Assembly (NCBI GenBank): GCA_035549555.1
Contig: DASZQR010000010.1
Location: 682,001-746,000 of the forward strand
Direction: 5' to 3'
DNA from: Patescibacteria group bacterium
GTDB taxonomy: Bacteria; Patescibacteriota; Microgenomatia; UBA8517
Length of the DNA stretch: 64,000 bases
The translations under genes and the position numbers were made by a program. The notes below the pieces were generated by a model. That model made no database searches and was not told the DNA's origin. It was given only the letters and a program-made list of their open reading frames with translations. Shown in pieces: positions 6,432 through 60,957 of the stretch (position 1 is the first letter of the stretch; every line of letters begins with the position of its first letter).

Positions 6432-6791
6432 TTAACAATTATTATTTATTATACAAATGGGGTTCAAAATATTATGCAACCCAAGTATTGTCCCAAGTAA
6501 GCTCACTATAAAGATTGCAGCAACAACAATCACAACTCCAATAATTCCAGTTGTAATTTGTTTGCGTGCTGCTTCAACTGCCCCTTTATCTCCGCCAGAT
6601 GCAAGTATGCGAATAGCGCCAATTACCATTTGAAAAGTAAACCAAATAAAGGCAACCACAGTCATAACTCCAATTACTTTTGAAAGTGCGCTATTAAAGG
6701 TTGTTCCAGCATCTGATGCTTGTCCTGTCCCTAAAGGTCCCACTCCTTGAAACCCTGGTCCTAATGGTATGTCAGCAATTAAATTTTTCAT
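6432..6791 (-). CDS. T4SS_pilin-like two-helix protein (paralogue 4)
   Basis: The product has 119 residues starting MKNLIADIPLG. Helix 1 lies near residues 40-62 and helix 2 near 82-105, with the loop SGGDKGAVEAARKQI between them. Unlike its sisters it ends with a short Cys-containing tail (NPICIINNNC). The start codon overlaps the stop of paralogue 5 as ATGA, a sign of translational coupling. Function by family: subunit of a type IV-secretion-like pilus or membrane channel. Confidence 0.82.
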   Translation of the reverse strand: MKNLIADIPLGPGFQGVGPLGTGQASDAGTTFNSALSKVIGVMTVVAFIWFTFQMVIGAIRILASGGDKGAVEAARKQITTGIIGVVIVVAAIFIVSLLGTILGLHNILNPICIINNNC

Positions 6792-8635: not shown

Positions 8636-10420
8636 ATGCCCAAATTTTTAAAATTTATTCTTGTTGTTTTTCTTTTCTTTGCCGTAACTTTTTCTTTAGA
8701 AGAAAAAGTACGAGTTGTAAAGGCAGATATTAATAGTGATTGTCAAAACGAAGATCCAGCCCAAATTGTTGCTGAAGGAAAAACTGATCAATGCACTCAA
8801 ATTTTAAGTGGAATTGCCTCAAGTATTTCTGCAGCAAATCAAACTAATCAAAAAAACCTAAGCTCTCTTCAATCCCAATTAAATAGTATAAACTCTCGTC
8901 TTTCTGCAATGTCAGATCAATTGAAGATTTATTCTCAAACTATTGCAAGTAAACAAAGTGATTTGGGTTTTACTCAAACAATTCTTAATCAAAAAACTGT
9001 TGATAATTACACAAGGTTAAGGACAAATAGTGATCCGCTTTTTTTAATTCTTTTATCAAATAATGCCTATCAGGCTTTTCAGCAATTAATTTTAGAACAA
9101 AAGGTTCAAAGCGCAGATACTAATAGTATTATTTCTTACGCAAATCAAATTAATGATTTGAAAAACGAGCAGGATACTCTCAAAAAAAGCCAAGATGCTC
9201 TTAGTACAGTTCAAAAACAGGTAACAAGTCAGGCAACATTTTTAGCGGGTGAAGTTGCTAAAGCAAATGCATATCTTGCAAGTATCTCAGCAAGGCAACA
9301 AGCTTTTATTGCAGCAAAACTTGCAAGTCTTGGTATTTCTCGAAGTGCATATGATTTGAATGGAGGATGTAGTAGTGATATTTCTCCAACAATTAAATCG
9401 CCAGGCTTTAGTCCTGCTTTTGCATTTTTTAGTTATGGAGTTCCAAATCGTGTTGGCCTAAATCAATATGGAGCTTTAGGCCGTGCAAATGCTGGCCAGA
9501 ATGCTCAAACTATTTTACAAGCTTACTATAATGCCGATTACACAACAAATTATAATGATGGAATTAATATTCATGTTGTCGGTACCAATGAATTTGGCCA
9601 AAGTTTTGACACCACTTGGAATATTGATGATTATCTGAAACACCTTTATGAAATGCCGACTAATTGGCCTGCTGAAGCTCTTAAAGCTCAAGCAATAGCG
9701 GCAAGAAGTTTTGCGTTAGCTTATACCAATAATGGTTCAGGAAGCATTTGTCCGTCACAATCGTGTCAGGTTGTAAAACAGGAATTAAATAACGATGCCT
9801 GGCAGCAAGCAGTTGACGCTACCAAAGGGATTGTTATGACAAATGGAGGAAATCCTATTAAAGCTTGGTTCTCTGCAACTCATGGCGGTTTTGAATTTAC
9901 ATCAAGTGACATCGGTTGGTCGTCAACTCCCTGGACAAAGCGTCTTGTTGACGCAAGCGGAAGTGTAAATAGTTTTTCAGATTTAAATAACAACGCATAT
10001 GACAAATCTTCTCCTGTTTTTTATTGCGATTGGGGGTCGCGCGCTGAAAACAACCACACAGCCTGGCTTCGTCCATCAGAATTAGCAGACATTGTAAATT
10101 CTGCTCTTCTTGCTGAAAAGGACAATAGCACCGAGTCTCATCTTTACCAGATTGATAAACCAAATCCTGAAGGAACTGACACATGGAGTCCTGACCAGGT
10201 TAGAAGTCAGCTCCAAAGTAGAGGAGTAACGCCTTTTAATAATATTAGTAATATTTCTGTAAATGTAGATTTTTCAACTGGCCGCACAACAAGCATTACA
10301 GCATCAGGTGATGCAGGAAATGAGACTGTAAACGGTGATGATTTCAAAAATTATTTTAATCTTCGTGCCCCTGCAAATATCCAGATTGTTGGCCCTCTTT
10401 ATAATATAGAGCACGACTGA
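8636..10420 (+). CDS. secreted coiled-coil protein with SpoIID-like domain
   Basis: The 594-residue protein has an N-terminal membrane or signal segment (about 5-25). A long coiled coil (about 60-220, rich in Gln/Ser/Leu and lacking Gly/Pro) resembles the N-terminal helical region of CwlO/EnvC-like wall proteins. From about residue 260 to 560 it carries a SpoIID/LytB-type domain: NQYGALGRA, then YEMPTNWPAEALKAQAIAAR, then FSATHGG. The Glu of YEMP corresponds to the catalytic acid of SpoIID lytic transglycosylases. It probably trims peptidoglycan outside the membrane. It stands divergent from the secretion operon, so it may help the machine or cell division cross the wall. Confidence 0.85.
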   Translation: MPKFLKFILVVFLFFAVTFSLEEKVRVVKADINSDCQNEDPAQIVAEGKTDQCTQILSGIASSISAANQTNQKNLSSLQSQLNSINSRLSAMSDQLKIYSQTIASKQSDLGFTQTILNQKTVDNYTRLRTNSDPLFLILLSNNAYQAFQQLILEQKVQSADTNSIISYANQINDLKNEQDTLKKSQDALSTVQKQVTSQATFLAGEVAKANAYLASISARQQAFIAAKLASLGISRSAYDLNGGCSSDISPTIKSPGFSPAFAFFSYGVPNRVGLNQYGALGRANAGQNAQTILQAYYNADYTTNYNDGINIHVVGTNEFGQSFDTTWNIDDYLKHLYEMPTNWPAEALKAQAIAARSFALAYTNNGSGSICPSQSCQVVKQELNNDAWQQAVDATKGIVMTNGGNPIKAWFSATHGGFEFTSSDIGWSSTPWTKRLVDASGSVNSFSDLNNNAYDKSSPVFYCDWGSRAENNHTAWLRPSELADIVNSALLAEKDNSTESHLYQIDKPNPEGTDTWSPDQVRSQLQSRGVTPFNNISNISVNVDFSTGRTTSITASGDAGNETVNGDDFKNYFNLRAPANIQIVGPLYNIEHD

Positions 10421-55769: not shown

Positions 55770-56429
55770 GTGAAGAAAACACTATTATCTCTCGCTGCAG
55801 CGTTTGTTGTAATTACTCCTCAAGGAAAAACTGTTTACCAGGTTTTAGGAGATTCAACATCTCTCCAAATTCCCGCCAAATCTCAAATTCAAGTCAAAAA
55901 TATTGCTGAAAATGTAAACAGTAATGAAATTTCTCTTGCAAACAATAACGGCAAAATTGAGCTAAATGGCGTAGATGTAACAAATATGCACGAAACTTTA
56001 GTTGATATAGAGTCACGTCCAAATTCTAATGAAATCCAAATTGGAAATTCAAATGGAAAGTTTTCAATCACAGAAAATAATATTACAGCTTTAACTTCTT
56101 TTCCAATTACAATCGATCCCTCCCAAAACGAATTATCTGTACAAACAAATTCCGGAAATCGTCTTGTCAGTATTTTGCCTTATGAAGCAAGTCTTACTTT
56201 AATGCGTGCAGGTACTGTAGACTCAATTAAAAATAATCAAATTGCGCTGGAAGAATCAAGTAACGGTGAGCTTCAATATAATATTGATGGAGTTAAAAAT
56301 TTAAATTTATTTAATGTTGTTAGTTTAAAAGAAGATATTGCAGCGAGTGTTTCTGCTTCAACTGGAGCGGTTCTAAATACAAATGAACCAGTGTGGTTAC
56401 ATTTTCTTACATTCATGTTTTCTAAATGA
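55770..56429 (+). CDS. secreted protein of unknown function
   Basis: The 219-residue protein starts from a GTG (MKKTLLSLAAAF as initiator Met). A signal peptide of about 20 residues precedes a beta-rich exported domain with repeated ideas (NEISLANNNGKIELNGVDVTN, NEIQIGNSNGKFSITENNI, QIALEESSNGELQYNIDGVKN), three related strand-turn units. It overlaps the YibE/F gene by 4 nt (ATGA). No family recognised. Confidence 0.6.
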   Translation: MKKTLLSLAAAFVVITPQGKTVYQVLGDSTSLQIPAKSQIQVKNIAENVNSNEISLANNNGKIELNGVDVTNMHETLVDIESRPNSNEIQIGNSNGKFSITENNITALTSFPITIDPSQNELSVQTNSGNRLVSILPYEASLTLMRAGTVDSIKNNQIALEESSNGELQYNIDGVKNLNLFNVVSLKEDIAASVSASTGAVLNTNEPVWLHFLTFMFSK

Positions 56430-57514
56430 TAAAAAAGATAATTTTGTTTCTTGTTTTATTTCTTGTTATTTTTCAAACCGCCGGTAGGCAGAATATATTC
56501 GCCCAGTCAAAAGAAGAATTTGAAAAAGCTCAGGTTATATCTGTTGATAAAGAAGGAGTAAACAATTCTTTTGGTGCCAAATTAAGATTTCAGGATCTTA
56601 CTTTAAAAATAATTGACGGAAGTGATGTTGGCAAAACTATTGAGTTAGAAAACGGTGGCGATTCCTTTCTTACAGATAGTCAATTAGCAAAAGTAGGGGA
56701 TATTTTAATTCTAGATAAAACTGATAACGGTATTAATATTCTTGATAAATATCGCTTAAATAGTATTCCGTTTTTAATAATTGGTTTTGTAATTTTGCTT
56801 CTATTAGTCGCAGGTCTTTCTGGAATTGGTTCAATTGCAGGTTTAATAATAAGCCTTGCAGTTATTTTGTTATTTATAATTCCGCAAATTCTTCATGGCG
56901 CAAATCCGCTTTTCGTAACAATTATTGGCTCTCTTGTTATATTAGTTGTTTCAACATATCTTGCCCATGGTATAAGTAAAAAGACAACCATTGCATTAAC
57001 TTCAACTTTCATTGCCCTAATTATTGCAAGCATTCTTTCAATTGCTTTTGTAAATTTCACAAATCTTGCAGGAATTGGAGATGATGAGGCAGTCTCTCTC
57101 CTGACAGCAGGAGCTACTCAAAATATTAACTTACAAGGTCTACTTCTCTCAGGAATTATTATCGGTACTCTTGGAGCATTAAATGACATAACAACAACCC
57201 AATCAGCAACTATTTTTGAATTACACGAAACAAATAAAAATTTATCATTTGACGATCTAGTCAAAAAGGGAAGTAGAGTAGGCCGTGAACATATCGTTTC
57301 CTTGGTTAATACTTTAGTTTTGGCTTATGCAGGAAGTGCCTTAGCAATTTTTATTTATTTTGAATTAAATCCTGGCGGTCAGCCTCTTTGGGTAGTTTTA
57401 AACAATGAAATCATAATTGATGAAGTCGTCCGCACTATCGCAGGAACATGTGGTTTAATTTTAGCAATTCCTATTTGTACTTTCCTTGCAAGCTGGTGGG
57501 TTAAAAGAAAATAA
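56426..57514 (+). CDS. YibE/F-family membrane protein
   Basis: The 362-residue protein has a signal or first helix, a soluble beta domain (~30-105) and seven or eight helices. Family motifs include GIGDDEAVSLLTAGA, GTLGALNDITTTQSATIFEL, SRVGREHIVSLVNTLVLAYAG and a final CGLILAIPICTFLASWW. Function in bacteria is uncertain. Links to membrane permeability and metal or bacteriocin sensitivity have been proposed. It is coupled by overlap to the secreted upstream protein. Confidence 0.85.
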   Translation: MIKKIILFLVLFLVIFQTAGRQNIFAQSKEEFEKAQVISVDKEGVNNSFGAKLRFQDLTLKIIDGSDVGKTIELENGGDSFLTDSQLAKVGDILILDKTDNGINILDKYRLNSIPFLIIGFVILLLLVAGLSGIGSIAGLIISLAVILLFIIPQILHGANPLFVTIIGSLVILVVSTYLAHGISKKTTIALTSTFIALIIASILSIAFVNFTNLAGIGDDEAVSLLTAGATQNINLQGLLLSGIIIGTLGALNDITTTQSATIFELHETNKNLSFDDLVKKGSRVGREHIVSLVNTLVLAYAGSALAIFIYFELNPGGQPLWVVLNNEIIIDEVVRTIAGTCGLILAIPICTFLASWWVKRK

Positions 57515-57550: not shown

Positions 57551-57691
57551 ATGTGTACTAATTGCGGTAAATCTTTAACTAACGAAAATATGTGCGACTG
57601 TGATGGACAATGTTTTTGTAATGAGGAAAATTGCGACCATAAAAAAGGGAAACATTGTAAAGAGTGTCATCAAAACAAAAATCAAAATTAA
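57551..57691 (+). CDS. 46-residue Cys-rich, metallothionein-like protein
   Basis: The product has 46 residues from MCTNCGKSLTN, with nine Cys (C2, C5, C15, C17, C21, C23, C28, C36, C39) and several His, arranged as CxxC, CDC, CFC, CxxC. It ends in a Lys/Asn/Gln tail. Such a Cys/His content in a cytosolic peptide suggests a metallothionein-type metal buffer or a very small zinc protein. It adjoins the metal-homeostasis operon (convergent, 3 nt from it). Confidence 0.65.
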   Translation: MCTNCGKSLTNENMCDCDGQCFCNEENCDHKKGKHCKECHQNKNQN

Positions 57692-57694
57692 TTC

Positions 57695-58225
57695 TTAAAT
57701 AGCTGTATGCCATTTATTAATTTGATTATTGGTTTTTAGATATTCACTGTCCTTCCATTTTTTCATAAATTCTGGATTATCCAAAAGATCCACGATAATC
57801 TTCTGTTTATATAAATTAATTAGCAACATATCATCTGGAAATATATTTTTATCCTCCAGCACATTATTTAAATAGTTATTTAAAAATCTGAATCTGTTTG
57901 TACAGATATAACCATCTGGCTCACAATGTTTTCTGAAATCTCGCATTGTTTCTATTTCTTTAGAGGTATTTTTATAAGCTTCATTTTTATACATCATCCA
58001 AATAATTGGATTGCTAAATGTCATTTCATCTGAAATTTGTTGTAAATCAAGTTTCAGTAAATTTATTTTTTTATCAAGCTCTTTTATTTTTTTATTATCC
58101 TTTTTCAAAATTAATTTAAATTTTTCGTTTTCAAATTTTTTAATTTCTTCATTTAATATTTCATATTCTTTGTACTGTAAAATTAATCTTTTAACTGTCT
58201 TTTTAGCAAAATCTAAGTTATTCAT
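57695..58225 (-). CDS. uncharacterised coiled-coil protein, last gene of the nicotianamine-synthase operon
   Basis: The product has 176 residues, overlapping the GTPase gene by 8 nt. A Lys/Glu coiled coil (about 15-65) is followed by a helical domain with two Cys in HCEPDGYIC, FLNNYLNNVLEDKN and NQINKWH near the end. Its role is unknown. As the fourth gene of a coupled Zur-type operon it should act with the metal genes. The HCEPDGYIC segment could bind metal. Confidence 0.6.
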   Translation of the reverse strand: MNNLDFAKKTVKRLILQYKEYEILNEEIKKFENEKFKLILKKDNKKIKELDKKINLLKLDLQQISDEMTFSNPIIWMMYKNEAYKNTSKEIETMRDFRKHCEPDGYICTNRFRFLNNYLNNVLEDKNIFPDDMLLINLYKQKIIVDLLDNPEFMKKWKDSEYLKTNNQINKWHTAI

Positions 58226-59132
58226 ATTTTTTTATAAAATCATTAAAAACATTTTTATCTAATTTTTCGCCAATGAAAACTAGATAATCTTTTTCTGGTT
58301 TTGCTTTTAATTTCACATAATTTATCTTTTTTGGTGTTGCTTGAATTTCATAATTTAATTTATTTTTCGTCTCAAAAGTTCCTTTAACTCTTTTTAAATT
58401 TATTTTCTTATCATATATTTGCTTAATAAATAAATTTATACTTGCAATTTCAATATTTTTATTTGGATTTACAACAATATAATCAATATTTTTTGTATGA
58501 TCTTCATTTAATATTTTTGTTAGCTCTGCAAGATGTTTAAGAAGTTTATCGCTTGATTTTGATTCATCTCTCTCCGCAATTTTTTGAGGATTTATTTCTA
58601 CTTTTGAATTAATTGATATTATAAATTTCTTCATTTTTCTTACAACTTGAGCATCAACTAAATCAATTTTTGATAATATGACTATATCAGCGAGTTCTAT
58701 ATCTAATTTTTTATTTTTCTTTAAATAATCTATTGAATTTTCAAGAGAGTCGATAACAAGAATATTTCTACTTAAATAAAAATTATCATCAAATTCGCTA
58801 TTAAGCATAAACTGTTGAATAAGTTTTACAGAGCTTGCTACACCAGTTGTTTCAATTATCAAAGATTTAACATTTTCTAATTTTGCTATCTTATCAAAAG
58901 CATCGAAAAGTTCACGTCCTGATGAACAACAAATACATCCTCCAGCAATTCCGTAAATATCAATATCACATGTATCTTTTAAACTTGCTTCGTCTATATT
59001 TATATTCGCAAACTCATTCTCAATAACAACTGAATTTTTAAAATCATCTGTTTTTAACATTCCTTTTATGAAGGTAGTTTTACCGCTTCCTAAAGATCCG
59101 TGTATTAAATATGTTGGTATTTTGTGTGTCAT
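58218..59132 (-). CDS. COG0523-family (CobW/ZNG1-like) metal-chaperone GTPase
   Basis: The 304-residue protein has P-loop HGSLGSGKTT, Walker B-like IETTGVASS, the hallmark metal motif GGCICCSSG (CxCC type), and a NKxD-like SKIDLVD for guanine. A C-terminal beta domain (~225-300) closes it. ZNG1/ZigA/YciC-type members deliver zinc to client enzymes when zinc is scarce, and Zur-controlled examples are the rule. It overlaps the nicotianamine-synthase gene by 4 nt and the coiled-coil gene by 8 nt. Confidence 0.92.
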   Translation of the reverse strand: MTHKIPTYLIHGSLGSGKTTFIKGMLKTDDFKNSVVIENEFANINIDEASLKDTCDIDIYGIAGGCICCSSGRELFDAFDKIAKLENVKSLIIETTGVASSVKLIQQFMLNSEFDDNFYLSRNILVIDSLENSIDYLKKNKKLDIELADIVILSKIDLVDAQVVRKMKKFIISINSKVEINPQKIAERDESKSSDKLLKHLAELTKILNEDHTKNIDYIVVNPNKNIEIASINLFIKQIYDKKINLKRVKGTFETKNKLNYEIQATPKKINYVKLKAKPEKDYLVFIGEKLDKNVFNDFIKKYE

Positions 59133-59857
59133 ATGTTTTGAAAAATAACAAAAGAATTAACAATGTCGTTCATAGGTTTTACCTCCATTACTGGCTTAAA
59201 TATCTTGAAAGAATGTTTAGATAAAGGTTTATACAAAATCCGTCTTGCCCCCCACGAAGATCTTGCAAGTATGTGAGTATTTTTCAAAGTTTGTTTTTTA
59301 ATTTTTTCCAAAATTTTATCTTTTATATTTGAATTAATACCAGCCAGTGCTGCCACAAAAATAGCATTAAAATTTTTATAACCCTCAAAATCTAATGCAT
59401 CCACCTGGATAACTTTAATTTTATTTTGTAATTTAAGTTCTTTTATTAAACTGCTTGAAAGATCAACTGCCTCTTTTTCTTTTTCCAATATTGTAACTTT
59501 TTGCCTGTAGATCTTTGCAAGCATTATTGCGGTCATTGGTAATGGCCCTCCACCAACAAAAAGTATTTTATGTTTCTTGTGAACACTACAACTTTTTAAA
59601 CTAAACCACTCCAGTTTGGTAAGTTTTAAGTAATTTTCAAAATAGGGGAATTTGTAAATATTTTTTTGAGACCAATATTTTTCTAGTTCGTATTCTGCGC
59701 TACTGCAAACTTTTTGTAAATTTTCAATTTGCTTTTTGTTTAAATTATTTTTTTCCTCTTTTAATGTATTTTCAACAAGGGTACTAAAAAGTCTATTAAC
59801 TTTTTCGCTTGGTAAGTAGTTATCTAAATTAGTTATTTCGTTATACAATTTTTGCAT
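59129..59857 (-). CDS. nicotianamine-synthase-like enzyme
   Basis: The 242-residue protein has a helical N-terminal domain (~1-85) and a Rossmann-type C-domain. LFVGGGPLPMTAIMLAK forms the SAM loop, and FNAIFVAALAGINS, ILARSSWGARRILYKPL and MNDIVNSFVIFQ match the nicotianamine-synthase family (plants, archaeal NAS, bacterial CntL). These enzymes join aminobutyrate units from S-adenosylmethionine to make metal-chelating nicotianamine or opine precursors. No opine dehydrogenase (CntM) is adjacent, so a nicotianamine-type product is the simplest guess. It overlaps the Fur gene by 25 nt. Confidence 0.88.
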   Translation of the reverse strand: MQKLYNEITNLDNYLPSEKVNRLFSTLVENTLKEEKNNLNKKQIENLQKVCSSAEYELEKYWSQKNIYKFPYFENYLKLTKLEWFSLKSCSVHKKHKILFVGGGPLPMTAIMLAKIYRQKVTILEKEKEAVDLSSSLIKELKLQNKIKVIQVDALDFEGYKNFNAIFVAALAGINSNIKDKILEKIKKQTLKNTHILARSSWGARRILYKPLSKHSFKIFKPVMEVKPMNDIVNSFVIFQNI

Positions 59858-60180
59858 TTTCCAAAAAACTCTAAACTATGACTCTCAATTAAAAAATTTT
59901 TATTTGTAATACTTTTTATTAATTTCTTCTCGTCAACTTTGACATCCTCAATCTTGCCGCAAGTTTTACAAATTAAATGATGATGATGTCCGTGATCTTT
60001 CCATTCATATCTTTTTTTTCCATCTCCAAATTCAATTTCTGTTATAAGCCCGTCTTTTATAAAAGATGTAAGTTCTCGATAAATTGTAGTTTTATTTGCA
60101 TCAATTTCTTCCAAGATCTCTGGAACAGAAATAGGAGATTTAGATTTCGCAAGTAATTTTTGTAATTTCGTTTTTATCAT
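59833..60180 (-). CDS. Fur-family metalloregulator (Zur-like)
   Basis: The 115-residue protein has a winged helix (SVPEILEEIDANKTTIYRELTSF), a His cluster KDHGHHHHLICKTCGKIEDV and a C-terminal pair FFGKCKNC. The two CxxC pairs form the structural zinc site, and the HHHH segment is the sensory-site part. The N-terminus is shorter than in Fur. The neighbours (NAS, COG0523, ZIP) indicate zinc sensing. It is the first gene of the operon and likely autoregulated through the palindrome next to its start. Confidence 0.9.
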   Translation of the reverse strand: MIKTKLQKLLAKSKSPISVPEILEEIDANKTTIYRELTSFIKDGLITEIEFGDGKKRYEWKDHGHHHHLICKTCGKIEDVKVDEKKLIKSITNKNFLIESHSLEFFGKCKNCITK

Positions 60181-60186
60181 TCATGT

Positions 60187-60192
60187 ATTATA
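60187..60192 (-). promoter_or_regulatory. -10 box (TATAAT) of the Zur-type operon
   Basis: TATAAT on the minus strand ends 6 nt before the ATG at 60180, and two of its bases overlap the palindrome. A repressor bound there would block the promoter. Confidence 0.55.
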
Positions 60193-60209
60193 TGCAACCA
60201 AGTTGCATA
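60191..60209. promoter_or_regulatory. palindromic operator candidate (Zur-type box) between NAS operon and ZIP gene
   Basis: TATGCAAC-CAA-GTTGCATA is a perfect 8-3-8 inverted repeat. It overlaps the minus-strand -10 and lies where the -35 of the ZIP gene promoter (TAAAAT at 60222-60227) would be. The position suits a single repressor site for both divergent units. The consensus is inferred from this one site. Confidence 0.65.
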
Positions 60210-60221
60210 AGTCAAATTGTG

Positions 60222-60227
60222 TTAAAA
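60222..60227 (+). promoter_or_regulatory. -10 box (TAAAAT) of the ZIP gene
   Basis: TAAAAT ends 7 nt before the ATG at 60235. The palindrome lies 12 nt upstream of this box. Confidence 0.5.
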
Positions 60228-60234
60228 TTAAAAA

Positions 60235-60957
60235 ATGGCAATATTCTTTACAATCTGTACTTTCTTCTCGACCCTTATAGGTGGGCTTGTGGGTCTAAAG
60301 TACAAAGATAAACTACATCTCATCTTGGGGTTTACGGCTGGAGTGCTTGTGGCAGTTGTTGCTTTTGATATTTTTCCAGAAATTTTTGAATTAGTTGAAA
60401 AAACCAAAGTTGAATCAGTTTATCCAATGATAGCTCTTGTTTTTGGTTTTCTGCTTTTCCATGTATTCGAAAAAACAATTCTTATTCATCACGAAGAAGA
60501 AGACGCATACGGTTCCCATCACCATCCGCAAGTGGGTATTGCATCAGCCATTGCTTTATCAGGTCATTCTTTTATGGACGGAGTTGGAATTGGTTTGGGT
60601 TTTCAAGTAAGCCCTGCAATTGGAGTACTCGTTGCAATTGCGGTAATTGCTCATGATTTCTCAGATGGACTAAACACTGTAACCTTAGTTCTAGTCAATA
60701 AAAATAAAGACAAACAGGCTCTTTATTTATTATTATTAGATGCGATTACGCCAGTTATTGGTGTAATTTCAACATTATTTTTTAAAGTTCCAGATAGTTT
60801 TCTTGTTTTATATTTAGGTTTTTTTGCGGGGTTTTTGCTTTATATTGGATCTTCTGATATCTTACCAGAAGCTCATAGAGAGCATTCTTCTTATTTAACC
60901 ATTCTTATGACCCTTATTGGAGTTGCATTTATTTTTCTAATAACTAGAATAGTCTAA
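60235..60957 (+). CDS. ZIP-family metal transporter
   Basis: The 240-residue protein has about eight helices with the ZIP metal motifs: a His-rich loop HHEEEDAYGSHHHPQ, then SGHSFMDGVGIGLGFQ and AHDFSDGLNTVTL (the metal-binding helix pair) and LPEAHRE. ZIP proteins import zinc or iron. Divergent from the Zur-type operon with a shared operator, it is probably the zinc importer of the locus. Confidence 0.92.
   Translation: MAIFFTICTFFSTLIGGLVGLKYKDKLHLILGFTAGVLVAVVAFDIFPEIFELVEKTKVESVYPMIALVFGFLLFHVFEKTILIHHEEEDAYGSHHHPQVGIASAIALSGHSFMDGVGIGLGFQVSPAIGVLVAIAVIAHDFSDGLNTVTLVLVNKNKDKQALYLLLLDAITPVIGVISTLFFKVPDSFLVLYLGFFAGFLLYIGSSDILPEAHREHSSYLTILMTLIGVAFIFLITRIV

Follow-up and report, generated by a model that had tools for sequence, protein, structure and literature searches.

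A candidate Fur-controlled operon joining a plant-type nicotianamine synthase homologue to a COG0523 GTPase in a Patescibacteria genome

The stretch of DNA analysed here (the window; 64,000 nucleotides, G000:C10:682001-746000) comes from a Patescibacteria group bacterium whose 1.01-Mb genome is 96% complete in 16 contigs. It carries a compact operon for a Fur-family regulator, a nicotianamine synthase (NAS), a COG0523 GTPase and a helical protein of a new family, divergent from a gene for a predicted ZIP importer (Table 1). The genes and their overlaps, the catalytic residues and fold of the NAS, the operator-promoter architecture and the conservation of these features point to a Fur-repressed metal-starvation operon, probably for zinc, in which a NAS-type chelator would buffer scarce intracellular metal or direct it to its users, beside import and a metallochaperone. 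We give this reading a probability of about 0.6. Nicotianamine is known from plants and fungi, and bacteria of the candidate phyla radiation (CPR) are presumed to be host-dependent.

In the mechanism we propose, metal-loaded Fur would sit on a palindrome within its own promoter and block RNA polymerase, which would keep a single transcript for Fur, NAS, COG0523 and the helical protein switched off, and probably the divergent ZIP gene as well. Under metal shortage, most likely of zinc, repression would be lifted, ZIP would bring metal in, and NAS would join aminobutyrate units of S-adenosylmethionine (SAM) to give nicotianamine or a close relative. This chelator would most likely stay in the cytosol and keep scarce metal exchangeable, and the COG0523 GTPase, with the helical protein and its HC-x6-C motif as partner or client, would pass metal on to priority proteins. 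Zinc is the favoured metal because a COG0523 protein and a ZIP importer are both present, and ZIP importers and Zur-controlled COG0523 proteins are recognised members of the zinc-starvation response (PMC2770081, PMC6103462).

Every gene in this set lies where an earlier note on the same DNA had placed it. On the minus strand the order is Fur, NAS, COG0523 GTPase and helical protein, with overlaps of 25, 4 and 8 nt, so that the tight coupling by overlaps of 4-25 nt claimed earlier was confirmed by measurement. The Pfam scores all exceed their curated cut-offs, with 151.5 bits for NAS (27.1), 120.1 for cobW (20.7), 71.4 for FUR (23.1) and 81.1 for ZIP (35.1), and the NAS-family assignment in particular is genuine, being far over its threshold. 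The arrangement is not chance, because both the Fur-NAS and the NAS-COG0523-helical protein linkages are found again in further genera and in a second class.

The nicotianamine synthase

The AlphaFold model of the window NAS (pLDDT 90.9) has a Rossmann SAM-binding fold with the helical N-domain of NAS. Its best PDB matches are structures of MtNAS, the Methanothermobacter thermonicotianamine synthase, including the SAM-bound E81Q variant 3fpj_B (TM-score 0.85), and CntL comes next; the SAM fold expected of this protein is thereby borne out. In a profile alignment to the PDB sequences, E59 aligns with MtNAS E81, for which structures 3fpg and 3o31 carry a Q substitution. Y76 aligns with MtNAS Y107. 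The AtNAS1 equivalents of this pair, E77 and Y106, are essential, and AtNAS1 E73 and 206-VGMD-209 are conserved across plant NAS, differ in microbial NAS-like proteins and are needed for activity (PMC10248798). In the window enzyme, E55 sits at the position of AtNAS1 E73, which is without counterpart in MtNAS and CntL, and the four-residue segment at the VGMD position reads AGIN (172-175), where MtNAS and CntL are gapped. For direct comparison we used an AtNAS1 sequence that is not a database record; the alignment is full-length at 33% identity and 102 bits, compared with 62-63 bits for MtNAS. This sequence fits all of the published residue numbers that were checked, namely C69, E73, E77, H96, Y106, LL116/117, P125 and VGMD206-209 (PMC10248798). 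Because it carries features that AtNAS1 needs and MtNAS lacks, the window NAS looks plant-type and not CntL-like. The NCBIfam equivalog profile for CntL (NF033601) gives it 40 bits against a cut-off of 350.

These comparisons also bear on the product. As with MtNAS and CntL, the enzyme could start from glutamate, histidine or another amino acid and make a different aminobutyrate conjugate, still a metal ligand but not nicotianamine. The nearest relative, which lacks a VGMD-like segment, and the identity of only 33% to AtNAS1 both fit such a product, but E55 and, in its position, AGIN match plant-NAS features missing from MtNAS and CntL, and the window NAS also scores higher against AtNAS1 than against MtNAS; we regard this alternative as a genuine possibility that is well short of probable. 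The most specific form of our preferred reading is that authentic plant-type nicotianamine serves as an intracellular buffer under Fur, with delivery via COG0523 and its HC-x6-C partner, and that the module, found in two CPR classes, may have a link to the origin of the NAS genes of eukaryotes. We advance it tentatively, at somewhat below even odds.

Matches to PF03059 were found in 13 of 374 sampled genomes of the window's class and in 9 of 393 of the Saccharibacteria class; the homologue survey covered CPR, and the contig scan with the NAS alignment returned three loci only. The high scorers, at 125-171 bits, are the window and genomes G011, G610, G460, G317, G300 and G1049, with the remaining matches at 35-75 bits. 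A VGMD-like segment is present in G460 and in six of the seven NAS linked to Fur or to an operator, and is absent from MtNAS, from CntL and from all ten other CPR NAS compared. In a tree of CPR NAS the Fur-linked set stands apart from the others, although branches are long and the deep nodes weakly supported. Most of the low-scoring set has no metal genes nearby, and this set looks like a group of different function. Several of these low scorers (35-75 bits; L049, L050, L051, L052, L010, L039 and L048) make up a second NAS-like family, divergent from the first, that has neither Fur nor metal genes beside it and in which the catalytic Tyr is mostly missing. In all four genomes seen of one Saccharibacteria family, a divergent NAS-like gene lies directly 5' of a gene for tRNA-dihydrouridine synthase. 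NAS-like domains also occur within larger proteins of 415-622 aa (L038 6504-8372, L040 6611-7951, L043 950-2197 and L045 6293-7681), which are possible fusions. The close relative at L012 (10001-10744; 65% identity), the locus of genome G610, belongs to a 'Candidatus Microgenomatus' metagenome-assembled genome of the same family as the window genome; it keeps Fur-NAS with an identical 25-nt overlap, and COG0523 and the helical protein are missing there.

Regulator, operator and promoter

The earlier note had described the regulator as a Zur-type Fur. Its Fur-family membership stands on the FUR domain (71.4 bits), the HHHH and two CxxC sites and the palindromic operator, but the sequence does not show it to be a Zur, as the Zur equivalog profile NF008646 gives 22.5 bits where the cut-off is 167. 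Its best relatives in NCBIfam and PDB are iron Fur proteins, followed among solved structures by a mycobacterial Zur, and PerR is among the matches; a Zur identity is thus unproven from either profiles or solved relatives. This raises the alternative that the operon answers iron or peroxide, as Fur or PerR would, and that the chelator serves iron or another divalent metal. Although the closest relatives of the regulator favour it, COG0523 and ZIP proteins are mostly zinc-linked, a mycobacterial Zur is also a close relative, an ArsP_1 permease and DUF1980 pair adjoins the cassette in G317 and G300, and the window operator is unlike the classical iron Fur box. We therefore consider an iron or peroxide operon rather unlikely.

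Upstream of the window operon lies a promoter that reads TTGACT-TATGCAACTTGGTTGCA-TATAAT (11/12), whose 17-bp spacer is taken up by the perfect palindrome ATGCAACNNNGTTGCAT, and an outer palindrome, TATGCAAC-CAA-GTTGCATA, spans 60191-60209 between Fur and ZIP. Exact matches to ATGCAACNNNGTTGCAT number one in the 1.01-Mb window genome, where about 0.003 are expected from simple composition, and one in G610, 5' of Fur-NAS. The same operator-in-spacer arrangement stands 5' of Fur-NAS in two other Microgenomatia. At L012 the promoter reads TTGACA-AATGCAACTCGGTTGCA-TATAAT (12/12) and the operator is the 17-nt spacer, and in G011 two promoters at 11/12 likewise have the operator as their 17-nt spacer. 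Within 2.1 kb, G011 has three operator sites, one upstream of Fur-ZIP, one upstream of NAS and one upstream of a 54-aa open reading frame (ORF) and YibE/F. Three Saccharibacteria, G317, G300 and G968, have Fur and NAS in divergent orientation with a related palindrome, ATTGCAAATTTGTTGCAATA, in the gap between them. About 400 kb separate Fur from the NAS operon in G1049, and the motif is found 5' of both, which argues strongly that Fur controls NAS. Overall, the motif lies next to Fur or NAS in six other CPR genomes, and this conservation of a predicted operator, as read from sequence, shows joint control of the genes.

Four other sites with two mismatches to the operator occur in the window genome; three were examined and all three are inside genes, and none of these three was kept as an extra regulon member. 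No Rfam RNA was found near the operon. In three genomes (window 60180-60192, L012 ~9580-9594 and L007, the locus of G011, ~6770-6785) only about 6-7 nt separate the -10 box from the Fur ATG, and because of this spacing the Fur transcript is probably leaderless.

COG0523 GTPase, helical protein and neighbouring genes

The COG0523 GTPase, the sole one in the window genome, has a CobW domain, a P-loop and the conserved GxCxCC motif as GGCICC; the earlier identification of this motif was correct, and co-transcription of the gene with Fur and NAS is supported. The order NAS-COG0523-helical protein is kept in four genomes of two classes, the window genome (Microgenomatia) and three Saccharibacteria, and a second COG0523 gene lies nearby in G317 and G1049. 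Across relatives in CPR, the linkage of NAS to Fur, COG0523 and ZIP recurs, and none of the three conditions that the earlier note set for refuting its reading (profile score, SAM pocket, neighbourhoods) applies.

Among 380 genomes across the phylum, the helical protein was found only alongside the cassette, apart from one chance-level match. Its homologues share 33-37% identity, with MTF, IWxMYKxEAY and HC-x6-C invariant. The confident model (pLDDT 85) is helical, and fold searches gave no match at E <= 0.001 in PDB or BFVD. Searches of Pfam, NCBIfam, PHROGs and PADLOC returned nothing above chance, and none was found in plasmids or viral contigs. On these sequence comparisons the protein is best regarded as founding a family of its own, and it is plausibly a partner or client of the COG0523 GTPase.

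The ZIP gene is divergent from the operon, as had been proposed, and ZIP linkage is also seen in G011, where ZIP lies between Fur and NAS. The window ZIP (60235-60957) has the motifs HSFMDG and AHDFSDG, and the G011 ZIP has HNFIDG and HEVPHE. Because these motifs differ, the two Fur-linked ZIPs appear to be of different subfamilies, and their metal preferences may differ. Past the 3' end of the Fur operon, on the plus strand, lie a Cys-rich ORF and a YibE/F gene. The earlier note had the Cys-rich ORF next to the operon, which is correct; its proposed metallothionein role found no support, as the peptide matches no Pfam or NCBIfam family, metallothionein included, is an orphan and has no operator of its own. 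With no homologue in 49 other genomes of the window's family, it is ruled out as a conserved part of the system. YibE/F also adjoins Fur-ZIP-NAS in G011, behind its own operator; the window YibE/F is without one. That operator, the third in G011 (L007 8768-9090), lies in a TTGACA-17-TATAAA promoter 5' of the 54-aa ORF and YibE/F, suggesting that YibE/F is in the Fur regulon of G011.

Table 1. Positions in the window of the operon, its predicted control elements and adjacent genes
Feature	Position	Strand	Basis or size
Promoter TTGACT-17-TATAAT (11/12) of the Fur-NAS-COG0523-helical protein operon; spacer is the predicted operator	60187..60215	-	29 bp
Predicted Fur-type operator ATGCAACCAAGTTGCAT, between divergent Fur operon and ZIP	60192..60208	.	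motif search
Fur-family regulator, 115 aa; HHHH and two CxxC metal sites	59833..60180	-	Pfam FUR
Nicotianamine synthase, 242 aa; plant-type features E55, E59, Y76, 172-AGIN-175	59129..59857	-	PF03059
COG0523/CobW-family GTPase with GGCICC	58218..59132	-	Pfam cobW
Helical protein, 176 aa; IWxMYKxEAY; HC-x6-C = H100, C101, C108	57695..58225	-	new conserved family
Predicted ZIP-family metal importer, divergent; operator region common with Fur operon	60235..60957	+	PF02535
Cys/His-rich peptide, 46 aa, 9 Cys, 3 His; orphan	57551..57691	+	ORF, strong Shine-Dalgarno AAAGGAGGTGAT
YibE/F-family membrane protein	56426..57514	+	Pfam

Fate of the chelator and comparison with known systems

Two observations favour a cytosolic role for the chelator: the enzyme resembles those of plants and fungi, and none of the loci has a linked exporter, opine dehydrogenase or receptor gene. 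The earlier note had instead suggested a metallophore used against the host, in which the NAS product would be exported, take metal near the host cell and be re-imported. There is precedent in Staphylococcus and Pseudomonas, whose NAS-type enzymes produce zincophores for secretion (PMC7438024, PMC5719457), and SBP_bac_5 oligopeptide-type proteins in the genome could be receptors. These proteins are too common to be diagnostic, however, and as an uptake test they are uninformative because they are present in all seven genomes searched. The opine dehydrogenase family PF10100 was not matched in the window genome, but no control genome matched either, and no PF10100 gene adjoins the related NAS loci. 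No exporter or receptor gene is linked at the Fur-linked loci, though MFS exporters were not searched for, and the low CntL score, together with the PF10100 result as qualified above, led us to reject a CntL/staphylopine-type system. Secretion is quite improbable in our estimate, and the earlier suggestion is not supported.

Several points weigh against an intracellular, Fur-repressed zinc operon. Within the high-scoring or Fur-linked group, ZIP is linked at only two of eight loci and COG0523 at four of eight, the L012 NAS is missing the VGMD-like segment, and the AtNAS1 sequence compared was not a database record, though in agreement with the published numbering. In addition, the Fur sequence does not settle the metal, as among solved structures it is nearest to iron Fur proteins and then to a mycobacterial Zur, and SBP_bac_5 proteins are present in seven of seven genomes, while retention of the product inside the cell is something we infer. 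The earlier picture of a complete make-chelator, import, allocate and buffer system therefore survives in part: the chelator enzyme, the joint control and the conservation in distant CPR stand, but the linkage counts do not support its completeness.

If the preferred reading is true, very reduced genomes of about 1 Mb spend SAM on a metal ligand of their own, and a chelator is tied to a COG0523 metallochaperone. The clients of COG0523 proteins are a long-standing question, and the operon would supply a candidate partner or client. The finding would also bear on the origin of eukaryotic NAS. The enzyme, the operator and the new protein are each small in size and open to direct tests. Our literature search turned up no account of a CPR NAS, in keeping with the earlier view that the combination is undescribed there; the nearest CPR mention is of proteins from another family of SAM enzymes, homologous to azetidine-2-carboxylate synthases (PMC11794875).

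Each of the known systems resembles the window operon in some respects. Like plant and fungal NAS (PF03059; AtNAS1, NcNAS), the window enzyme has the core domain, here without the plant C-terminal extension, the E73, E77 and Y106 equivalents, a segment at the VGMD position, though reading AGIN, and an N-terminal LYxxI...PSxxV...LFxxLV pattern; unlike them, it is bacterial, about 33% identical, of predicted activity only and encoded alongside Fur and COG0523 in one operon. It shares with MtNAS (3FPE) the fold (TM-score 0.85), the SAM pocket and the E81/Y107 equivalents, whereas MtNAS is without the E55 equivalent and AGIN and makes thermonicotianamine from glutamate. In common with the staphylopine and pseudopaline operons (CntL/CntM), NAS-type aminobutyrate transfer and metal-starvation control are both predicted here, but the enzyme is far under the CntL cut-off and no opine dehydrogenase, exporter or ATP-binding cassette importer is linked. 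Zur regulons with COG0523 (YciC/ZagA) and ZIP/ZupT likewise combine a Fur-family repressor, a promoter-overlapping palindrome, COG0523 and an importer; the window differs in its NAS and new helical protein, its very small regulon, its operator and a regulator assigned to the Fur family only. The parts are each known; what is new is their combination, the plant-type enzyme within it, the operator and the new protein family.

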